40,803 bases of DNA from a virus. The stretch is from positions 1 to 40,803 of the IMG/VR virus record IMGVR_UViG_3300042691_030418; one strand, given 5' to 3'. Under the pieces are notes generated by a model. That model was not told where the DNA came from. It did no database searches and saw nothing but the letters and a program-made list of their open reading frames with translations. Position numbers and translations under genes: made by a program. Below are positions 5,884-37,319 of this stretch, piece by piece (position 1 is the first letter of the stretch; every line of letters starts with the position of its first letter).

Positions 5884-6185
5884 TGCCGCAAGTCGCGTGG
5901 GACTTCTTGGCGCTGGGCGGGGCGGTGATTTCATGCCTCGCCACCCTGGCCCGCCGCCATATGTTGTCCGACACGCTGGGGCGTTGGCACTCGGCGCCCG
6001 GCTCGGTCCAGGCCGCGCTCGCGTTTCAGTCGATCGTGACCGGCGGCATTGCCGTGAGCCTCGCCGTAGGCGGCCACCATGCCAACGAGGTCGAAACGCT
6101 GCTGCTTCTGGTGTCCGCGGTCGTCTCCGTCGCCCTGTGGCGAAACCTATCCCGCCAGGAGCGCGAAACCGAGGTTGAACAATGA
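5880..6185 (+). CDS. Small three-pass membrane protein, holin or spanin-like candidate
   Basis: 101 residues starting at tandem ATG codons (5880 and 5883) that overlap the stop of the previous gene. Hydrophobic segments lie at about 6-22, 45-63 and 70-87; the C-terminus is charged (RNLSRQERETEVEQ). Its own stop overlaps the start of the endolysin gene (ATGA at 6182). It is part of the lysis cassette by position; assignment as the holin is uncertain. Confidence 0.6.
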   Translation: MMPQVAWDFLALGGAVISCLATLARRHMLSDTLGRWHSAPGSVQAALAFQSIVTGGIAVSLAVGGHHANEVETLLLLVSAVVSVALWRNLSRQERETEVEQ

Positions 6186-7404: not shown

Positions 7405-7598
7405 GGCCGGACGCCCGTATCGAGGCGGACCGTGAGGCCCAGGGAGCGCCAGACGCCATGGCGCCGCAGGTTGTCGTCGATGGCGAAGTGGCGGGCATCG
7501 CGCCAGCGCGCCACCACCTCGCCCAGCGTCATGCGGGTGGTGTCGCCCAGGCCGTCCGTCACCTCGACGGGCGTGTCGTCCGGTAGCGGGCCGGTCAT
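7401..7598 (-). CDS. Hypothetical small phage protein
   Basis: 65 residues; ATG overlaps the stop of the preceding gene (ATGA). Composition is mixed and acidic at the start (MTGPLPDDTPVEVTDGLGDTT), with a helix TLGEVVARWRDARHFAIDDNLRRHG. No family is recognised. Translational coupling to both neighbours places it in the same transcription unit. Confidence 0.55.
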   Translation of the reverse strand: MTGPLPDDTPVEVTDGLGDTTRMTLGEVVARWRDARHFAIDDNLRRHGVWRSLGLTVRLDTGVRP

Positions 7599-7828
7599 GT
7601 GGTTTCCTTTGGGTCGAAGGCGTGGGTGATGTTTTGCGCTTTGGCAACAGCGGCGTGGAGCGCGTGGTAACCCCGCTCGGCGGCGGCCTGCTGTGAGGGG
7701 TTGCCGACGTACGCCTTGGCCGCCTCGGCGTCGGTGAGCAATCCTTCGCGGCCCTCACCGGCCAGCGCCAACAAGCCGCGCGCCTGGGCGAGCGTTAGCA
7801 CGAGGGTGAGGTGGTGGGGCGCGCTCAT
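7595..7828 (-). CDS. Hypothetical small helical protein
   Basis: 77 residues from the ATG at 7828, which overlaps the upstream stop. Two helical stretches: LTLVLTLAQARGLLALAGEGREG and DAEAAKAYVGNPSQQAAAERGYHALHAAVAKA. No family is recognised. The long reading frame running further upstream in this frame is not coding; the next gene occupies that DNA. Confidence 0.55.
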   Translation of the reverse strand: MSAPHHLTLVLTLAQARGLLALAGEGREGLLTDAEAAKAYVGNPSQQAAAERGYHALHAAVAKAQNITHAFDPKETT

Positions 7829-8523
7829 GCCGCGACTCCTTCCGGCTGCAGGTTGAGAAGTTCGATCCCGTCCCGGTTGGTGTCGAGGAAGCCGAGGCGG
7901 TCGAACCCAAGAGGGTCGGCGGGCAGGGGGTCGCCGAAGATGTGGGCCGTCAGGGCGGCGTGGAGCGACCCGGCGAACCGGAACGCCCTCACGGCCACCA
8001 CGGCGTCTACGGCCGCCCATACGAGGCCGCGCTGGGCCACGATGTCGACGAACGCGACCCGGGTGATCGCGCTGGGCGGGATGGCGCCCAGGTGGGCGCA
8101 GGTTCCCATGGCGCGCAGGCTGGTCTCCCACGCCTTCCCGTTGGCGTAGTCGCGCATCAACCGGTCCCGGTAGTGGCGGGTCCGGCGGTGCATATCCCAG
8201 CCGGGTGGGAGGTCGTCGTGGCCCCGGGCGGTCTGTTCCACGGCGTCCTCGTCCGGCACGAGGCAGAACGGATTGAGCCGGTCGGTCTCGACCTCCAGCA
8301 CGGCGAACCGCACCGGGGGGGCTCCCTGGGGGGGTGCGCGTAGGCCGCGCCGCCGGTCGATGGCGTTGACGCCGAAGAAGGGGCCATAGGCCGAGGTCAG
8401 ATAGACCGCGCCCGGGTGGCTGGTCGCCTTCCAGTTGGACCGCTTGGTCTCGCGCCGGGGGCGAAGGCCCTCGGCCATGGCCCGCCGGGCGGCAGGCTCG
8501 TTGGTGCCGTGGTAGAGCCTCAC
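7825..8523 (-). CDS. ADP-ribosyltransferase-fold-like protein (tentative)
   Basis: 232 residues from a GTG at 8523 overlapping the upstream stop. The start MRLYHGTNEPAARRAMAEGL, followed by SHPGAVYLTSAY near residue 35-46 and LEVETDRLNPFCLVPDEDAVEQ near 80-100, resembles phage proteins with an ART-like (KptA/PARP-type) layout: an early H-G-T strand, a helix ending in GL, then a VYLT strand. The His5 and Tyr41 positions could match the NAD-binding H-Y pair. A clear third catalytic residue cannot be assigned. If the reading is right, it might modify a host protein or nucleic acid during infection. Other readings include a catalytically dead structural relative. Confidence 0.5.
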   Translation of the reverse strand: MRLYHGTNEPAARRAMAEGLRPRRETKRSNWKATSHPGAVYLTSAYGPFFGVNAIDRRRGLRAPPQGAPPVRFAVLEVETDRLNPFCLVPDEDAVEQTARGHDDLPPGWDMHRRTRHYRDRLMRDYANGKAWETSLRAMGTCAHLGAIPPSAITRVAFVDIVAQRGLVWAAVDAVVAVRAFRFAGSLHAALTAHIFGDPLPADPLGFDRLGFLDTNRDGIELLNLQPEGVAA

Positions 8524-8819
8524 GCGCCCACCTCCGACTGAATGCGGTCCATTTGGGCGCGGATATACTTGGGAATCGCGGCGCCGTACTCAAAGGCGTC
8601 GGGCCAGCCCTCGACGGTGAGGTAGGCGTACTGCCGGTCAACCTCACCGTCGATGTTGTCGCCGACCCGGCGGCAGACCCCGAAGTCCACGCGCTTGCCT
8701 TCCGCCTGCAGTTCGTCGCGCAGCTTCGCGGCCTCGCTGGGCGTGTCCCAGTAGTGGCACTCGATGATGTCGTCGTGGTCGTCCAGTTCCTCGACCACCC
8801 ACTCATAATGCACGTTCAT
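8520..8819 (-). CDS. Hypothetical acidic phage protein
   Basis: 99 residues from the ATG at 8819, with AGGAGACC just upstream on the coding strand, so the start is firm. N-terminus MNVHYEWVVEELDDHDDIIECHYWDTPSEAAKLRDEL suggests a small alpha/beta fold; the C-terminus is a helix (AIPKYIRAQMDRIQSEVGA). No family recognised. It is the first gene after one of the repeated leader hairpins and is probably translated independently of the gene upstream. Confidence 0.7.
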   Translation of the reverse strand: MNVHYEWVVEELDDHDDIIECHYWDTPSEAAKLRDELQAEGKRVDFGVCRRVGDNIDGEVDRQYAYLTVEGWPDAFEYGAAIPKYIRAQMDRIQSEVGA

Positions 8820-8833
8820 TTTGGTCTCCTGGC

Positions 8834-8846
8834 GGGCACCATGCCC
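8834..8846 (-). promoter_or_regulatory. Leader hairpin of the repeated GGGC-N5-GCCC / AGGAGACC module (copy 1)
   Basis: On the coding strand this reads GGGCATGGTGCCC, then CGCC, AGGAGACC and the ATG of the gene at 8819. The same layout precedes four other leftward genes in this operon. It could be a 5' UTR stability or translation-control element. Confidence 0.6.
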
Positions 8847-8919
8847 TTCCGACGCCTCTGCCCGGCCACCCCTGCGGGCTCCGGGCTCGGGCGCGTTCAG
8901 CGCGGCTGGGGGCGGTGGG

Positions 8920-9810
8920 CTACCAGCCGAACTTCTCGGCGCACACCGGGCCGATCCCCCGCTGGACGCTCTCCGGGTCCGTGAGGTCCCGGTTGCAGAT
9001 CGCGCAGACTCCGAACTGGCGCCCGTAAGCGATGGCCGCCGTTTCCGGGTCGGCGGCCAGCCCGACAATCTCCTGCTCAAGAACCTCGGTGCATTCGAAC
9101 GACCGCTTGAACCGGCCATCCTGAACCTTGCCGAGGTAGGTCTCGCCCTGGGTGACGTAGATGGCCCCGGGGTTGGCGCCGGTGGCCTTGGCGGGTTTGA
9201 ACTTGAACCCGGCCAACCGCAGCGAAACCCGCTTGGCGCCCTTGTCGAAGGCGCTCTGGAAAGCCGCCGCGACCCGGCTCAGGTCCATGACCGGGGCGTT
9301 GGCCTCGCGCTCGGCACGGGCCTTGGCCCGGGCGGCATCCCGCTCCGCGTCGGCGGCGCGCAGGCGCTCCACCGTGGCCATCTGCTTGTCGGTGAGGTGG
9401 CCGTACCGCTCGACCGCCTCGTGCATGGCCTGGGCAAACCCAAAGCCGCCGCGCTTGGCGGCGATCCAGGCGGCGGCCTCCGGGTGCGATTCCGCGAAAC
9501 CCGCGACGGCGGCCTCGACCTTGCGAACCTTGCTGGCATGGGCCTGGGCGCGGGCCTTGGCGCGCTGCTCGGGGGAGGTGCGGAAGGTGAACCGGCCCAC
9601 CCCCTTACAGGTGAAGCACTTCTGGCCGTGGCGCGAGCGACCGTAGTAGATGCCCGAGCCCCGGCACTTCTGGCAGTTTTCGACGTAGGTTTCGCCGGTA
9701 TAGGCCGCGTGGACCTCGGCCTGGGTCATGGCGTTGGCCCGCACCAGCGGGGCTGCGGGGCGGGTGTGAACCGAGAGGTCCGGTTCGTCTAGGTCCGCAA
9801 AGTAGTCCAT
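8920..9810 (-). CDS. Zinc-finger protein with DnaJ-type Cys motifs and C-terminal DUF6011-like domain
   Basis: 296 residues from the ATG at 9810 (GGAGGACC upstream). Residues about 43-70 have CQKCRGSG...CFTCKGVG, the CxxCxGxG arrangement of DnaJ-type zinc fingers. The C-terminus (CAICNRDLTDPESVQRGIGPVCAEKFGW) is the Cys-rich signature of DUF6011, found in phages and actinobacteria, and probably binds a second zinc. The middle is helical and rich in Ala, Lys and Arg. Its role is unknown, possibly nucleic-acid binding. An operator-like site lies directly upstream, so it should be silent in the lysogen. Confidence 0.75.
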   Translation of the reverse strand: MDYFADLDEPDLSVHTRPAAPLVRANAMTQAEVHAAYTGETYVENCQKCRGSGIYYGRSRHGQKCFTCKGVGRFTFRTSPEQRAKARAQAHASKVRKVEAAVAGFAESHPEAAAWIAAKRGGFGFAQAMHEAVERYGHLTDKQMATVERLRAADAERDAARAKARAEREANAPVMDLSRVAAAFQSAFDKGAKRVSLRLAGFKFKPAKATGANPGAIYVTQGETYLGKVQDGRFKRSFECTEVLEQEIVGLAADPETAAIAYGRQFGVCAICNRDLTDPESVQRGIGPVCAEKFGW

Positions 9811-9822
9811 GGGGTCCTCCGT

Positions 9823-9835
9823 GGGCTTGATGCCC
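9823..9835 (-). promoter_or_regulatory. Leader hairpin of the repeated module (copy 2)
   Basis: Coding strand GGGCATCAAGCCC, followed by ACGGAGGACC and the ATG at 9810. The four stem base pairs match the other copies while the loop sequence differs. Confidence 0.6.
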
Positions 9836-9842
9836 TCCGATG

Positions 9843-9856
9843 CGGTAATAATACCG
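9843..9856. promoter_or_regulatory. Putative repressor operator CGGTAATAATACCG
   Basis: A 14-bp CGGT-N6-ACCG site 33 bases upstream of the DUF6011 gene start. Identical half-sites occur in the immunity region and at two other promoters. Binding by the phage repressor is inferred. Confidence 0.7.
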
Positions 9857-9901
9857 GCCAAGCCGGGTGGTGCAACTCCTTTCTCAGTCGGTTTCGGGGA
9901 T

Positions 9902-9914
9902 GGGCACCATGCCC
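9902..9914 (-). promoter_or_regulatory. Leader hairpin of the repeated module (orphan copy)
   Basis: The stem and loop are identical to copy 1 (GGGCATGGTGCCC), and the upstream GGCGTGCAAG context also occurs in copies at 10230 and 10674. No good gene start follows; an AAAGGAG lies about 25 bases downstream without a convincing open frame. It may be a remnant of a lost gene. Confidence 0.5.
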
Positions 9915-9982
9915 TTGCACGCCAAAGGCCCCGCACTCTAGGGGCCGGGGCCGGGTGGCGGGTTGTCCCCGATGGGGTGGGG

Positions 9983-10213
9983 TTAGGCGGCGGGGAAGTC
10001 CCCATCAGTGTGTGTGAATACGCCGTAGGTGTAGACCCGCTGCCCGAGGTCTTTGCCGTTGGCATCGGTGGCGATGACGTAGGCCATGCCGATGTTGCGG
10101 CGGGCGCTTGCCTTGGCGGCTTTGGCAAAAGCCTTCGCCCTGGAAAGCCGGTGAAAGACGAACGGGTTGTCCGGCTGATCGTCGTGGGCGTAATCGACGC
10201 GGTAGGTGGTCAT
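9983..10213 (-). CDS. Hypothetical small phage protein
   Basis: 76 residues; ATG at 10213 preceded by AGGAGAGACCAAG. Sequence MTTYRVDYAHDDQPDNPFVFHRLSRAKAFAKAAKASARR, then a beta-rich half GMAYVIATDANGKDLGQRVYTYG. This strand-helix-strand plan resembles small phage proteins of unknown role. No family is named. Confidence 0.65.
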   Translation of the reverse strand: MTTYRVDYAHDDQPDNPFVFHRLSRAKAFAKAAKASARRNIGMAYVIATDANGKDLGQRVYTYGVFTHTDGDFPAA

Positions 10214-10229
10214 CTTGGTCTCTCCTGTC

Positions 10230-10242
10230 GGGCGGGGTGCCC
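10230..10242 (-). promoter_or_regulatory. Leader hairpin of the repeated module (copy 3)
   Basis: Coding strand GGGCACCCCGCCC then GACAGGAGAGACCAAG and the ATG at 10213. The sequence GGGCGTGTAA immediately upstream parallels the copy at 10674. Confidence 0.6.
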
Positions 10243-10310
10243 TTACACGCCCAAGGCCCGGCCACCTAGCGGCTCCGGGCGTGGGCGGGTTGTCCGCGAA
10301 GGGGGGTGGG

Positions 10311-10487
10311 TTAGGCGGGTCGGACCTCCCGGGTGATGACGGTCTCGAGGTGGTGGTTGTCCGCCAACTCGGCCCAGAGGGACCGCTGGTGGTCGTTGGC
10401 GAGCGCCCGGGTGGCGAACGGCCCGAACACCTGGGGGTCGGTGTTGTCGAAGGTCGCGACGATCACGAAGATGGTCGGGGCGGTCAT
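10311..10487 (-). CDS. Small hypothetical protein
   Basis: 58 residues starting MTAPTIFVIVATFDNTDPQVFG and ending LETVITREVRPA. Its ATG overlaps the stop codon of the upstream gene (TAATG), implying coupled translation. Predicted strand-helix-strand fold. No family is recognised, but the start, stop and spacing fit the pattern of the neighbouring genes. Confidence 0.6.
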   Translation of the reverse strand: MTAPTIFVIVATFDNTDPQVFGPFATRALANDHQRSLWAELADNHHLETVITREVRPA

Positions 10488-10657
10488 TACGCAACCCCCC
10501 GGAAGGTCCGAATGTCGGCCACTAGCTGTTCGACCGACACGTCGAACACGTCCATGACCAGCGATGCCGTCACGCAGGGCACCGGCTCGGGTTCATCGAT
10601 CCACTCGATGTCGGTGTTGAGTGCCAGCCACTCCATTGCGGTTTCGTAGGTGCCCAT
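10487..10657 (-). CDS. Small hypothetical protein
   Basis: 56 residues from ATG at 10657 with AGGAGACC seven bases upstream. Sequence MGTYETAMEWLALNTDIEW, then acidic stretch IDEPEPVPCVTASLVMDVF and a helical end VEQLVADIRTFRGVA. No family is recognised. First cistron of a two-gene unit with the 58-residue gene downstream. Confidence 0.6.
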   Translation of the reverse strand: MGTYETAMEWLALNTDIEWIDEPEPVPCVTASLVMDVFDVSVEQLVADIRTFRGVA

Positions 10658-10673
10658 TTGTCGGTCTCCTGCC

Positions 10674-10687
10674 GGGCGGGGTTGCCC
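10674..10687 (-). promoter_or_regulatory. Leader hairpin of the repeated module (copy 4)
   Basis: Coding strand GGGCAACCCCGCCC, then GGCAGGAGACCGACAA and the ATG at 10657. Loop of six instead of five. Confidence 0.6.
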
Positions 10688-10762
10688 TTGCACGCCTTCG
10701 GGCGGGCCAGCGTTCGCCTCCCGCCCTGGGCCGTTTTCCGGCGATGTGGAACGCGTTCCGCC

Positions 10763-11077
10763 TTACTTGAGGGCACGCTTGCGCGCGTCGGTCAGATACT
10801 TGGCAGCGGCGGCGTCGCGGGCGGTGGCGGTGTCGAAGTGTCGCTCGTTCTGGCTGGCGCCGTATCGCACGCCGTTGCGGGTCGCGCAGGGGTAGAACGA
10901 GAAGTAGCGTCCCGGGGCCCGTCCGTAGCCCCATGACTGGTCGGGGGTCTGGGTGAAGGTGTTTTCCGAGAAGCGGATCGTCGCGCCGATCTTGCGACCC
11001 AGGCGGTCTGTGACGCCGAAGTCATGCTCAACGGTCTCGACGTTGGCGGTCTCGGTGATGCGGGTCAGGATGGTCAT
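10763..11077 (-). CDS. Hypothetical phage protein, 104 aa
   Basis: Starts at ATG 11077 with GAGGAGACCT upstream. N-terminus MTILTRITETANVETVEHDFGVTDRLGRKIGATIRF; centre TFTQTPDQSWGYGRAPGRYFSFYPCATRNG is aromatic-rich; C-terminal helix DTATARDAAAAKYLTDARKRALK is basic. No family is recognised. It is the first leftward gene after the attachment region and probably has its own promoter there. Confidence 0.65.
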   Translation of the reverse strand: MTILTRITETANVETVEHDFGVTDRLGRKIGATIRFSENTFTQTPDQSWGYGRAPGRYFSFYPCATRNGVRYGASQNERHFDTATARDAAAAKYLTDARKRALK

Positions 11078-11092
11078 TTTAGGTCTCCTCGC

Positions 11093-11106
11093 GGGCTGGA
11101 TCGCCC
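11093..11106 (-). promoter_or_regulatory. Leader hairpin of the repeated module (copy 5)
   Basis: Coding strand GGGCGATCCAGCCC followed by GCGAGGAGACCTAAA and the ATG at 11077. It keeps AAGGGC on the 5' side like all other copies except that at 9823, where GAGGGC occurs. Confidence 0.6.
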
Positions 11107-11176
11107 TTCGATAGGTCCACCTTATTGTCACCAGCGGCTTGGACAAGTCCAATCTGGGAGAAAATTCGGGGAACGG

Positions 11177-11199
11177 GGTTCGGGAATATTCCGGGACTC
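11177..11199. repeat. 23-bp repeat, left copy; putative integrase arm site
   Basis: Matches 11409-11431 in 22 of 23 positions and in the same orientation; contains the palindrome GGAATATTCC. The two copies flank the tRNA-like core about 100 bases away on each side, as arm-type integrase sites do in attP. Confidence 0.65.
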
Positions 11200-11245
11200 T
11201 GGTCCCCAAACCCTCCCGCCGTTTCCCGTCCGTTCCCGGCCCCGC

Positions 11246-11274
11246 TTGACGGCACCGGGTGCGCGCCCCTAGGG
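11246..11274 (+). promoter_or_regulatory. Sigma-70-type promoter driving the tRNA-like segment
   Basis: CTTGACG at 11245-11251, a 17-bp spacer, then CTAGGG at 11269-11274. The start of transcription would fall about 4 bases before the tRNA-like sequence. CTTGAC/CTAnnn is the type of promoter seen before stable RNA genes in Alphaproteobacteria. The -10 is a weak match, so this is inferred. Confidence 0.5.
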
Positions 11275-11285
11275 AAACGGGGCGC

Positions 11286-11336
11286 GCCGGATTAGCTCAG
11301 CAGGTAGAGCGGCGGTTTTGTAAACCGCAAGTCAGG
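11286..11336 (+). other. 5' part of tRNA-Thr(TGT); putative attP core
   Basis: From 11286 there is a 7-base acceptor strand (GCCGGAT), a D arm (GCTC...GAGC), and a perfect 5-bp anticodon stem (GCGGT/ACCGC) with loop TTTGTAA, anticodon TGT at 11319-11321. Beyond about 11336 no T-arm with TTCRA and no matching acceptor strand (ATCCGGC) is found. Both sides carry phage genes, so this is read as a phage attachment core made from the 5' portion of a host tRNA gene, next to the integrase gene. The exact crossover end cannot be fixed without the host sequence. Confidence 0.7.
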
Positions 11337-11339
11337 GCC

Positions 11340-11373
11340 GATTGAACCCGGTTTTAACCCGGTTCTTTCAATC
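11340..11373. repeat. Inverted repeat at the integrase 3' end
   Basis: GATTGAA at 11340 pairs with TTCAATC ending at 11373; in between lie two AACCCGG-type copies that extend the pairing. It overlaps the last bases of the integrase stop codon. No T-run follows on either strand, so it may be an integrase core-binding site or weak transcript end. Confidence 0.45.
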
Positions 11374-12553
11374 ACTTGTCGCCATCGGTCCCGGTCGCCT
11401 CGGGGGTAGGTTCGGGACTATTCCGGGACTCGGTGACAGAACCGCCCTCCAGCGCCGCCCGCAAGTCGTCCTCCAGGGCGTGCGCGTAGCGGGCCGTGGA
11501 CTGTATGTTCGCGTGCCCGAGGAGGCGCTGGGCGATCTTGATGTTCCCCGACCGGCGCAGGACCGTGGTGCCCGCATGGTGGCGCGTTCCGTGGATCAAC
11601 CGACCACCACCGACGCCCGCCCGCTCCGCGGCATTGTTGAGCCGGGCCTGGAGGCCATAGTAGGTCAGCGAGGCCAGCGTGACCTTGCCGGTGGCCTCGT
11701 CGCGCTCCTCCACGAACCAGATATGGTCGAGCCCCGCCGCCCTGGCGCGGCCCACGCGGGCGGCAACCTCCCGGGCATGTTCCTCCCGCAGCGGGATCGT
11801 GTGGCCGCCCACGTCGCGCTTGCGGCCCCGGCGCCGCTCGCCATCCGGCATCAACCGGCTTCGGATGGTTAAGCGCGGGCCGTCCGGGTCGTAGTCCGCA
11901 GGCTCAAAGAACAGTTCGCCGAACCGGGGGCCGTAGGTCAGCAGGAGGTCCAGGGCCAGCCCCACGGTCGGGCCGCACTCCGCGCGCCACACCCGCTGTT
12001 CCTCCTCGCCATAGACCCGGACGAGTCCGGCGGGCTCCTCCAGGCGCAGCTTGCCCCACCGGATCGGCTGCAGGGTCAGGCCCTTCCGGCTCCATAGCTC
12101 CTCGGCGTAGCGCAGGACGGGCCGAAGCTGGTCGACCACATCGCGGTTCACCGTCGCCGGGCTCGGGAAGTAGCGGCGCGCGTCCTTGGCGCGGGACTTC
12201 TGGTAGGGGATCAGGCGGCGCTTGCGGATGGCGTCGGCCACCATCTCAGCGTCTATGTCGCGGAGCATGGTCGCGCGGCCCAGGAGGCCGATCAGGCGCT
12301 CAAGGCGCCGCTCCACGTCCACGGCATCGCCCCGGTGCTGGCCCACGTCCTGCCACCAGCGCCCACACGCCTCGTCCAGGGTCAGGCTGTCGGCGCTGCC
12401 GAGTCGGCCCTCGGCGATTTCCCGCCGGATGCGGTCTTCCGCCCTCTCAGCGGCGCGTCTCGTAACTTGCCCGGTGCTGCCGTGGTAGCGCGTCCCACGA
12501 AGGACAAAGTCGAACTGCCAGAAGCGACTCTTTGTCGGTTTGTAGACGGACAC
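11372..12553 (-). CDS. int: Tyrosine recombinase integrase
   Basis: 393 residues from a GTG with AAGGAG nine bases upstream. Inserts and excises the phage by site-specific recombination. N-terminal residues 1-60 resemble an arm-binding domain (MSVYKPTKSRFWQFDFVLRG), 55-175 the core-binding domain, and about 180-360 the catalytic domain. Active-site residues: Arg210 (TYGPRFGEL), His321 and Arg324 (HGTRHHAGT), His347 (LLGHANIQST) and Tyr356 (ARYAHAL). The putative attP core lies just past its stop, and one arm repeat lies inside its 3' end. The excisionase-like gene upstream overlaps the first 172 bases. Confidence 0.95.
   Translation of the reverse strand: MSVYKPTKSRFWQFDFVLRGTRYHGSTGQVTRRAAERAEDRIRREIAEGRLGSADSLTLDEACGRWWQDVGQHRGDAVDVERRLERLIGLLGRATMLRDIDAEMVADAIRKRRLIPYQKSRAKDARRYFPSPATVNRDVVDQLRPVLRYAEELWSRKGLTLQPIRWGKLRLEEPAGLVRVYGEEEQRVWRAECGPTVGLALDLLLTYGPRFGELFFEPADYDPDGPRLTIRSRLMPDGERRRGRKRDVGGHTIPLREEHAREVAARVGRARAAGLDHIWFVEERDEATGKVTLASLTYYGLQARLNNAAERAGVGGGRLIHGTRHHAGTTVLRRSGNIKIAQRLLGHANIQSTARYAHALEDDLRAALEGGSVTESRNSPEPTPEATGTDGDK
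11409..11431. repeat. 23-bp repeat, right copy; putative integrase arm site
   Basis: Same orientation and one mismatch relative to 11177-11199. Lies within the last codons of int (encoding SRNSPEP). The placement on both sides of the tRNA-like core supports a complete attP rather than attL or attR. Confidence 0.65.
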
Positions 12554-35840: not shown

Positions 35841-37319
35841 ATGGAGAAGCGGGACGATCCGTCCAACCCGTCCGGCGCCTATGCCCGGATGAGCGCGGTG
35901 CGCGAGCGGGTGGGGGACATTCTGGAAGGCCCGGACGCGATCCGCGCCAAGGGGCAGACCTACCTCCCGAAATACGAGAGCGAGGACGCGAACGAGTATA
36001 AGCGCCGCCTCACCCAGGCGCCGTGGCTCCCGGAGTTCGAGGACATCCTGGGCGGCCTTGCGTCCAAGCCCTTCACCAAGGACATCACCCTCGCGGACGG
36101 CGCCTCCTCGGAGATCGTGGCGCTTGCCGAGGACATCGATGGGCGCGGGAACAACCTCACCGCCTTCGCCCGCCCGACCTTCCGCAGCGGTATCGCGTTC
36201 GGGATGGTCGGCATCTTGGTCGACAACACCGGCACCGGCACAGCCCGGACGCGGGCCGAGGAGCGCCGGGCTGGCGTCCGGCCCTATTGGCTGGCCCTGT
36301 CCGCCGACGACATCATCGACCTCAAGACCGCCTTCGTGGGTGGCCGCGAGGTCGCCTACCACGTCCGCCTCAAGGAGAGCGTCGTGGTCCGCGACGGCTA
36401 CGACGAGCGGGTCGAGGACCGCATCCGGGAACTCAACCGCGACCCGGCCTATAGCCCACGCGGCGACATTGTGGCCCTGGGCCCCCCCACCTGGGCGCTG
36501 CATCGCGCCGAGCGGAACAACGAGGGTGAGCAAGTCTGGGTCAAGATTGACGAGGGCGCCTTCGCCCCCCTGGACGAGATTCCCCTGGCCCTGTTCTGGA
36601 CCGGCGACCGCAAGGGCTCGCAGGAGGTGCAATCGCCCCTCGCCGCCCTGGCCGACAAGCAGATCGAACTCTACCGAGCCCTCAGCCGGAAGGACGAGGC
36701 TTACACCAAGGCCGGGTTCCCCATGCTCACCGCCAATGGCCTGCGCCCCCCGGCCAAGGGTGAGGAGAAGCTGATGACCGGCCCCGGGCGCGTCCTCTAC
36801 GCCCCGGCCCCGAACGCCTCGTGGGACTACATTCAGCCCGAGCCGGATATCCTCAAGGAACTCCGCGCCGAGGTTGAGGCCACGCGGGACGATATGCGCC
36901 GCCTCGGCCTGCAGCCGCTCATGCCGAAGTCCGGCGGGGTCACGGCGACCGCCTCGGCCATCGACGGTGCCCGCGCGCAGTCCGCCGTCCAGACCTGGGC
37001 GCTGGCCTTCAAGGACGTGCTTGAGCAGGCGCTCGTCTACACCGCCCGCTGGATCGGCCAGGAGCCGAACGTCGAGGTCTCGATCCATACCGACTTCCTG
37101 GCGGGCATCACCTCGCAGCCGAGCCTCGATGCTCTGGCGAAGGCGCGGGAGGCCAAAGACCTCAGCCGCATCGCCTACCTCACCGGCCTGATCCGCCTGG
37201 GCGTCCTGCCCGGCGACTTCGACATGGAAGCCGACGAGGCGCTGATCGCGACCGAACTGGAGGGCCTGGAGCCCGAGGAGACACCCCCGGAACAGGGCGA
37301 GGAGCCCCCGGAGGACTGA
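35841..37319 (+). CDS. Portal protein, DUF4055 type
   Basis: 492 residues, 12 bases after the terminase. YARMSAVRERVGDILEGPDAIRAKGQTYLPKYESEDANEYKRRLTQAPW and GLASKPFTKDI are characteristic of DUF4055 proteins, now regarded as phage portals. The stem region includes SALAALADKQIELYRALSRKDEAYTKAGFPML. The acidic tail (LEGLEPEETPPEQGEEPPED) is common. Forms the dodecameric channel for DNA entry. Confidence 0.85.
   Translation: MEKRDDPSNPSGAYARMSAVRERVGDILEGPDAIRAKGQTYLPKYESEDANEYKRRLTQAPWLPEFEDILGGLASKPFTKDITLADGASSEIVALAEDIDGRGNNLTAFARPTFRSGIAFGMVGILVDNTGTGTARTRAEERRAGVRPYWLALSADDIIDLKTAFVGGREVAYHVRLKESVVVRDGYDERVEDRIRELNRDPAYSPRGDIVALGPPTWALHRAERNNEGEQVWVKIDEGAFAPLDEIPLALFWTGDRKGSQEVQSPLAALADKQIELYRALSRKDEAYTKAGFPMLTANGLRPPAKGEEKLMTGPGRVLYAPAPNASWDYIQPEPDILKELRAEVEATRDDMRRLGLQPLMPKSGGVTATASAIDGARAQSAVQTWALAFKDVLEQALVYTARWIGQEPNVEVSIHTDFLAGITSQPSLDALAKAREAKDLSRIAYLTGLIRLGVLPGDFDMEADEALIATELEGLEPEETPPEQGEEPPED

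Follow-up and report, generated by a model that had tools for sequence, protein, structure and literature searches.

The leftward accessory operon of a tailed phage, contained in the 40,803-base virus record IMGVR_UViG_3300042691_030418 (here called the window, meaning this whole stretch of DNA), carries in its intergenic gaps a repeated RNA module with a core of two hairpins, H0 and H1, and a linker. The H0–H1 module is a new RNA family, used gene by gene in accessory operons, and the reality of this family is hardly in doubt. Its carriers amounted to 41 IMG/VR loci and one Phenylobacterium element; five pairs among the 41 viral loci were near-identical, a few more loci were related at the DNA level, and removal of the near-identical pairs left 36.

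Read from 5′ to 3′, the module comprised a stop codon, about 14 nt, H0 (about 4 bp with a loop mostly of 5 nt), CCC and 1–3 nt, H1 (6 bp, an A opposite GG, a G–U pair, 2–4 bp and a loop mostly of the GNRA type), a linker near GGCGUG, an optional and variable hairpin H2, a Shine–Dalgarno sequence and AUG. After near-duplicates were dropped 61 copies were counted; seven of these, the orphan copy described below included, lacked a well-formed H1 recognised by the parser, leaving 54, and removal of one duplicate gave 53. The A/GG internal loop of H1 was present in 53 of the 61 copies. A four-nucleotide H1 loop was found in 47 of 61 and belonged to the GNRA type in 33 of these 47 (21 of 33 distinct H1), against 1 of 47 when the opposite strand was read. 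Because the GNRA loops occur on one strand, they point to an element acting as coding-sense RNA and not as a DNA hairpin. H0 taken alone formed a stem of at least four pairs in 46 of 54 copies, as compared with 17% of shuffled stretches.

The initial annotation of this DNA had described a GGGC/GCCC hairpin with a Shine–Dalgarno sequence before five leftward genes, and a sixth, orphan hairpin. All six stems were located as described, at 8834–8846, 9823–9835, 9902–9914 (orphan), 10230–10242, 10674–10687 and 11093–11106. The bare stem was rejected as the feature, its frequency being that of chance (GGGC-N4–8-GCCC: 37 in the record versus 30.1 expected, standard deviation 5.3; 11 of 100 shuffles as high). 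The stem joined to a Shine–Dalgarno sequence (GGGCN5-6GCCCN0-8GGAG) did exceed shuffled sequence, with 7 occurrences versus 1.05 expected (standard deviation 1.08) and none of 100 shuffles reaching this number; five of the seven were the named leftward starts, and the other two lay on the + strand at 37262 and 37295. The module reached about 75 nt further upstream, with two more hairpins and a linker at the starts 8819, 10213 and 10657 and at the orphan. A repeated hairpin and Shine–Dalgarno sequence before unrelated genes was thus correctly seen, but the hairpin described was the least conserved one (H2), the core being H0–H1–linker. The five gene-start copies were a full module at 8819, 10213 and 10657, H2 with a Shine–Dalgarno sequence alone at 11077, and a look-alike at 9810:

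8817–8903, − strand: copy 1, gene starting at 8819; H0 8891–8903, H1 8860–8886, linker from 8859, H2 stem 8834–8846, Shine–Dalgarno sequence AGGAG 8826–8830, ATG 8817–8819.
9808–9835, − strand: look-alike before the gene 8920–9810, found as a pattern match; H2-like GGGCATCAAGCCC, GGAGGACCCC and ATG, with no H0 or H1 of its own.
9902–9971, − strand: copy 2, the orphan; degenerate H0 about 9959–9971, H1 about 9927–9952, linker, H2 stem 9902–9914, no Shine–Dalgarno sequence directly behind; next gene start 9810.
10211–10297, − strand: copy 3, gene starting at 10213; H0 10285–10297, H1 10256–10280, linker, H2 stem 10230–10242, Shine–Dalgarno sequence 10222–10226, ATG 10211–10213.
10655–10742, − strand: copy 4, gene starting at 10657; H0 10730–10742, H1 10700–10726, linker, H2 stem 10674–10687, Shine–Dalgarno sequence 10666–10670, ATG 10655–10657.
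11075–11106, − strand: copy 5, gene starting at 11077; H2 stem 11093–11106, AGGAG 11085–11089, ATG 11075–11077, typical H0 and H1 absent.

A first pattern scan outside the window gave 38 bacterial genome loci and two viral loci; among these 40, one was a new true relative (L024, on a contig of a Phenylobacterium metagenome-assembled genome, MAG; 83% identity over 83 nt, though the genes differ) and one (L002) was the window's own stretch. Covariance model R1 was built from three window copies and L024. With the H1 pattern 40 IMG/VR loci were obtained; R1 matched 30 of them at E below 1e-3, and R2, a later model built partly from loci of the same pattern search, matched 32 over its full length. 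Two further patterns gave 13 and 28 new loci, with the element in 6 and 3 of them, respectively. Model R3 drew on 39 copies from viral contigs other than the window, L024 also being left out. In the window it reported exactly the four H0–H1 copies, orphan included, at E values of 1.7e-15 to 1.4e-6, the next match being at 0.54, and it also recovered L024, L167, L168 and L171, all outside its builders. When the H1 pattern was reversed as a control, 21 loci were obtained, none of which R3 matched at E up to 0.5. Of the two points that the initial annotation had named as refuting, neither spoke against the module: it exceeded shuffled sequence, and it was present in other phages (41 IMG/VR loci). 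In four loci (L071, L069, L091 and L092) H1-like hairpins CCCGGAGC..GTGGCCGGGC without H0, linker or start codon were observed, R2 matching the H1 part alone; these may be due to chance or to a second use of the hairpin.

Within the window, copy 3 gave the strongest R3 match (73.7 bits, E 1.7e-15) and was the one aligned with L024 (83% over 83 nt, E 1e-13). Copy 4 followed (54.2 bits, E 5.6e-11), the outer stem of its H1 being changed on both sides, which is compensatory, and then copy 1 (46.6 bits, E 3.3e-9), which was among the R1 builders and whose predicted fold agreed with H0, H1 and H2. The orphan reached 35.3 bits (E 1.4e-6) with R3 and E 2.6e-4 with R1, which had been built without it; its own fold was no better than that of shuffles (z 0.43). 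Copy 5, not an R1 builder either, matched R1 (24.7 bits, E 3.1e-4) and was not recovered by R3. For the 9810 look-alike neither R1 nor R3 reported a match at E up to 10, and the H0–H1 of the orphan lay about 117 nt upstream of this gene. The stretch between them (9820–9880, − strand) contained a startless AAGGAG, a CCGGCTTGGCCGG hairpin and a CGGTATTATTACCG palindrome, and looks like an insertion that parted the module from the gene. The lower H2 stem kept its pairing among the window copies (UGC/GCA, UGU/ACA and, in copy 5, UCG/CGA), with one mismatch in copy 1.

In an alignment of 47 copies, 10 of 12 pairs were changed on both sides and the covariation score was 0.299, as compared with 0.065 for shuffled alignments, these counts referring to sequences, some of them related, and not to independent events. 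Pairing was kept in 94.3% of the cells (99.7% in H1), and five measures all exceeded 500 of 500 shuffles and every slid control. The 39-copy alignment without the window gave 8 of 12 pairs changed on both sides and 94.4% paired, beyond all shuffles. Rfam 15 showed no match on the element in window 7500–12500 (E up to 5), in ten loci at the gathering threshold or in six loci at E up to 1. One carrier contained, at L063:4934–4997 (−), a match to c4-2 antisense RNA slightly below the Rfam gathering score (39.4 versus 41). No printed description was recognised in the literature, a search that did not extend to subscription papers and supplements and is no proof of the family being unpublished.

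The module was closely placed between co-directional genes. An open reading frame (ORF) of at least 50 codons ended within 60 nt before H0 in 49 of 54 copies, versus 23% of random positions in the same loci, and the stop codon lay 8–22 nt before H0 in 40 of the 54, versus 5.4%. A start with a Shine–Dalgarno-like sequence followed H1 in 50 of 53 copies at 20–67 nt (median 36.5 nt), some of these being first matches inside H2 and not the true start. Between linker and start 32 of 53 copies had a hairpin, with a median distance to the start of 43 nt, against 29.5 nt for those without one; H2 looks like a neutral spacer hairpin. No T-run (at least five T in 8 nt) followed H1 in any of the 54 copies, no terminator-like site was found at H1 in the window, and an intrinsic terminator is disfavoured by the missing U-run. 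In the 12 contigs with several copies these were always on one strand, with up to six copies in one 40.7-kb record. At L167:7623–7801 (+) a weak second copy (E 0.27) stood directly behind the first; tandem copies may exist.

In the 54 copies a closed downstream ORF lay within the locus in 47 cases, and 40 of these were aligned. In agreement with the initial annotation, which had considered the flanking genes unrelated, each family occurred in at most two of the 40 downstream proteins scanned; DNA helicase, DNA ligase, DUF932, pentapeptide-repeat, SprT-like and DoxX proteins were represented, and no structural protein was among those shown. All-against-all blastp (1e-6) of the ORFs of 27 carriers (about 11–40 kb, mostly partial, G+C 51–70%) gave the terminase as the largest cluster and no cluster in more than eight carriers. 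Because both the downstream families and the carrier proteins vary, the module is not bound to one phage lineage or to one gene.

L024 was the sole carrier giving a host. In this Phenylobacterium MAG, L024:3412–6315 comprises about 2.8 kb between a tRNA-Cys gene and a 24-nt repeat of the tRNA-Cys 3′ end (88% identical) and contains the RNA once in full and a second time in part, near 6060–6082, as expected of a small integrated element or prophage remnant. Among 390 genomes of the family of genome G001, R1 gave six matches, five of which were dropped after the alignments and flanks had been read (no surrounding module, coding-like); R2 in 385 genomes of the class, with the 12 best candidates per genome scored, and the exact H1 pattern, looked for in 398 genomes from the phylum, each found G001 alone, the reversed control of the latter matching three genomes. 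The nearest integrase relatives of the window (nine loci, L043–L051; L002, the window's own stretch, excluded) showed no R3 match at E up to 0.5; L043 was 100% identical over its extent, but ended short of the operon. A blastn comparison of three element queries with 50,697 cultured-phage records found no true counterpart (one 22-nt chance match), the low-complexity filter and distance limiting this test, and a model search of two whole or near-whole cultured phages gave nothing at E below 0.04. Plasmids gave a single chance match, inside a coding gene.

As a best guess, to which somewhat less than even confidence is given, the module is a local leader for the next gene that is read by a widely conserved factor. 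During synthesis of the operon mRNA, H0 and H1 would fold in the intergenic gap and be read by this factor once per cistron, and the next gene would be initiated as an independent unit instead of through overlap with the preceding gene. The repetition before successive genes of one operon argues for a local, per-gene effect, since one copy would do for processive antitermination. Because no phage gene was shared, the reader would either be conserved in the hosts, perhaps a ribosome-associated protein, an RNase or similar, or be a small phage protein missed by blastp. A more specific form of the proposal, that the module is a portable leader which needs no phage protein and binds conserved host expression machinery (ribosome, RNase or RNA polymerase), being used by phages without a common gene and not by bacteria as far as sampled, is possible but rather doubtful.

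Several observations weigh against the local leader. Some copies are far from a start (the orphan, and the second copy of L074 and that of L102, at about 104 nt); a host factor might be expected to have chromosomal sites, and the sampled bacterial genomes are free of the element, one integrated element excepted; a small, fast-changing phage RNA-binding protein would evade the blastp test of the 27 carriers; and compact genomes alone could give the tight spacing to stop and start. In addition, predicted openness from the Shine–Dalgarno sequence to AUG was no greater with native than with shuffled H0/H1 (0.590 versus 0.581 unpaired; 44 leaders, p 0.13). As the Shine–Dalgarno sequence lies outside the hairpins and its predicted openness is independent of H0/H1, there is no support for a masking switch or for simple insulation. 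The translational switch offered by the initial annotation, in which the Shine–Dalgarno sequence would be hidden or freed, is accordingly disfavoured; an alternative helix between the linker and the 3′ arm of H0 gave p 0.0026 in all 54 copies and 0.02–0.21 after thinning of related ones, and is unproven. Mimicry of 23S rRNA was also rejected, a scan of L213 (rRNA orientation unchecked) having given two weak H1-like sites, both on the same strand, while the GGAG..TGGCC core was absent.

Processing and protection of the transcript, roles also offered by the initial annotation, are a rival reading: an RNase would cut within the element or next to it, after which its hairpins would shield the upstream 3′ end and the downstream 5′ end. 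The copies stand directly behind stops and before starts, are repeated at each gap and have strong GC hairpins, and host enzymes would suffice, in keeping with carriers that have no gene in common. Both the fixed A/GG loop and the GNRA loop, however, demand more than a plug, and H1 plus H0 would be short for a substrate of RNase III; this explanation is rather unlikely. Processive antitermination of the put type, in which the emerging transcript would bind RNA polymerase and keep it from terminating along the operon, no phage protein being involved, is considered unlikely. In size and in its core of two hairpins the element is similar to put (about 70 nt and two stem-loops; PMC9378689), the absence of a shared phage protein among the 27 carriers is compatible with it, and the lack of a U-run means that the element is not itself a terminator; but HK022 has one put per early operon while up to six copies per phage on one strand occur here, and a boxA-like sequence was near only 2 of the 61 copies.

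The invariant internal loop and the G–U pair resemble a recognition site, and the copies adjoin Shine–Dalgarno sequences, as might be expected if a phage-encoded RNA-binding repressor or activator co-controlled the accessory genes; no protein was found in more than eight of the 27 partial carriers, and this explanation appears improbable. That one element precedes unrelated genes in phages not related to each other would also suit a recombination junction for cassette exchange with an incidental structure, as the initial annotation had suggested. This is disfavoured as the sole explanation, and is very improbable, because the sequences of copies within a phage differ while base pairs persist through double changes, which serves folding and not DNA identity; moreover, GNRA loops are found on one strand only. 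Chance GC-rich stems are possible for the 9810 copy, and the bare stem does occur at chance frequency; for H0–H1 this explanation is refuted by the enrichment of stem plus Shine–Dalgarno sequence, the covariation, the held-out R3 and the reversed-pattern control (0 of 21 with model matches), and as a general account it has practically no weight.

The window has a G+C content of 68%. Its + strand carries the genes for terminase, portal, scaffold and head, and its − strand an integrase followed by leftward short genes, mostly of unassigned function. In the leftward run from 11077 to about 7600 there are four intergenic gaps of about 97–172 nt, each with one H0–H1 copy, and the remaining junctions overlap. 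The genes next to the copies are:

8520–8819, − strand: after copy 1; 99 aa, weak match to PHROG 15581 and none in Pfam.
8920–9810, − strand: after the orphan; 296 aa, C-terminal DUF6011 (PHROG 4046, E 2.9e-88; PF19474, E 6.6e-14).
9983–10213, − strand: after copy 3; 76 aa, neither Pfam nor PHROG match.
10487–10657, − strand: after copy 4; 56 aa, PHROG 25543 (E 9.7e-10, no function attached).
10763–11077, − strand: after copy 5, first of the run; 104 aa, neither Pfam nor PHROG match.

Beside the integrase gene a tRNA-like stretch was found at 11286–11353 (+), with 33.7 bits to the Rfam tRNA model, TGT in the anticodon region and no ARAGORN call; it is probably an attachment site in a tRNA-Thr, and matching phage records are annotated as tRNA-Thr. 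The portal protein (35841–37319, +) showed 63% identity to that of Synechococcus phage Yong-M4-211, the next relatives being at about 36%; the element was not seen in the 50 kb of this phage that were tested.

Phage accessory operons are rich in short unassigned genes, and how each of these is expressed is seldom clear. A conserved intergenic RNA in otherwise unrelated phages provides a handle, as bait for its partner and as a marker of genes handled together. Should the partner be a host factor, this would represent a common point of host gene expression exploited by phages of many lineages. Expression constructs might also use the module as a ready-made part between genes.

Among known systems, the boxA/boxB nut site of lambda is likewise placed in an intergenic leader and has a small hairpin whose loop is GNRA-like; H1, by contrast, is longer, has an internal loop and occurs in many copies. 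A boxA nut site is disfavoured, the boxA-like sequences counted above being those within 150 nt of the element. In three related contigs, sequences resembling the boxA of rRNA were noted immediately behind the element, near L085 11318 and L074 3891 (CTCTTTGAAA, TTCTTTGACA) and near L102 1340 (GGTCTTTGACATT). The candidate structured RNAs from Rfam 15 and from metagenome surveys (PMC8040213) are similar as covarying RNAs upstream of genes, some of them in phages, and differ in that the window stretch and the carrier loci had no match among the Rfam 15 families, the survey supplements lying outside this comparison.

Nearest in design are the SAS and ESAS of cluster K mycobacteriophages (PMC3203893, PMC12699233). 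SAS is a 13-bp GGGATAGGAGCCC with the Shine–Dalgarno sequence inside, present in 11–19 copies per genome at the starts of some non-structural genes and suspected of a role in initiation; ESAS is an inverted-repeat extension (imperfect, 17 bp) upstream of about half of the SAS, for which the authors find little support for hairpins. Like these, the module is repeated in one orientation at the starts of non-structural genes. Unlike SAS, it has its Shine–Dalgarno sequence after the hairpin and a different consensus, and its carriers are not one phage cluster; unlike the 17-bp repeats of ESAS, its upstream part consists of two separate, covarying hairpins with stems of 4–5 bp and 6 + 2–4 bp. Allowing up to three mismatches, the SAS GGGATAGGAGCCC occurred 19 times in the window versus 18.07 expected, and at none of the five starts. 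HK022 put (PMC9378689) acts in cis, is read by host machinery without a phage protein, stands once in each early operon near the promoter, and suppresses termination by binding the zinc-binding domain of the RNA polymerase β′ subunit. The module differs in its repetition before successive genes on one strand and in details of sequence and structure. With about 79 model positions in H0–H1–linker and two helices, it nevertheless has in put its nearest known RNA in size and in a putative host-only working.

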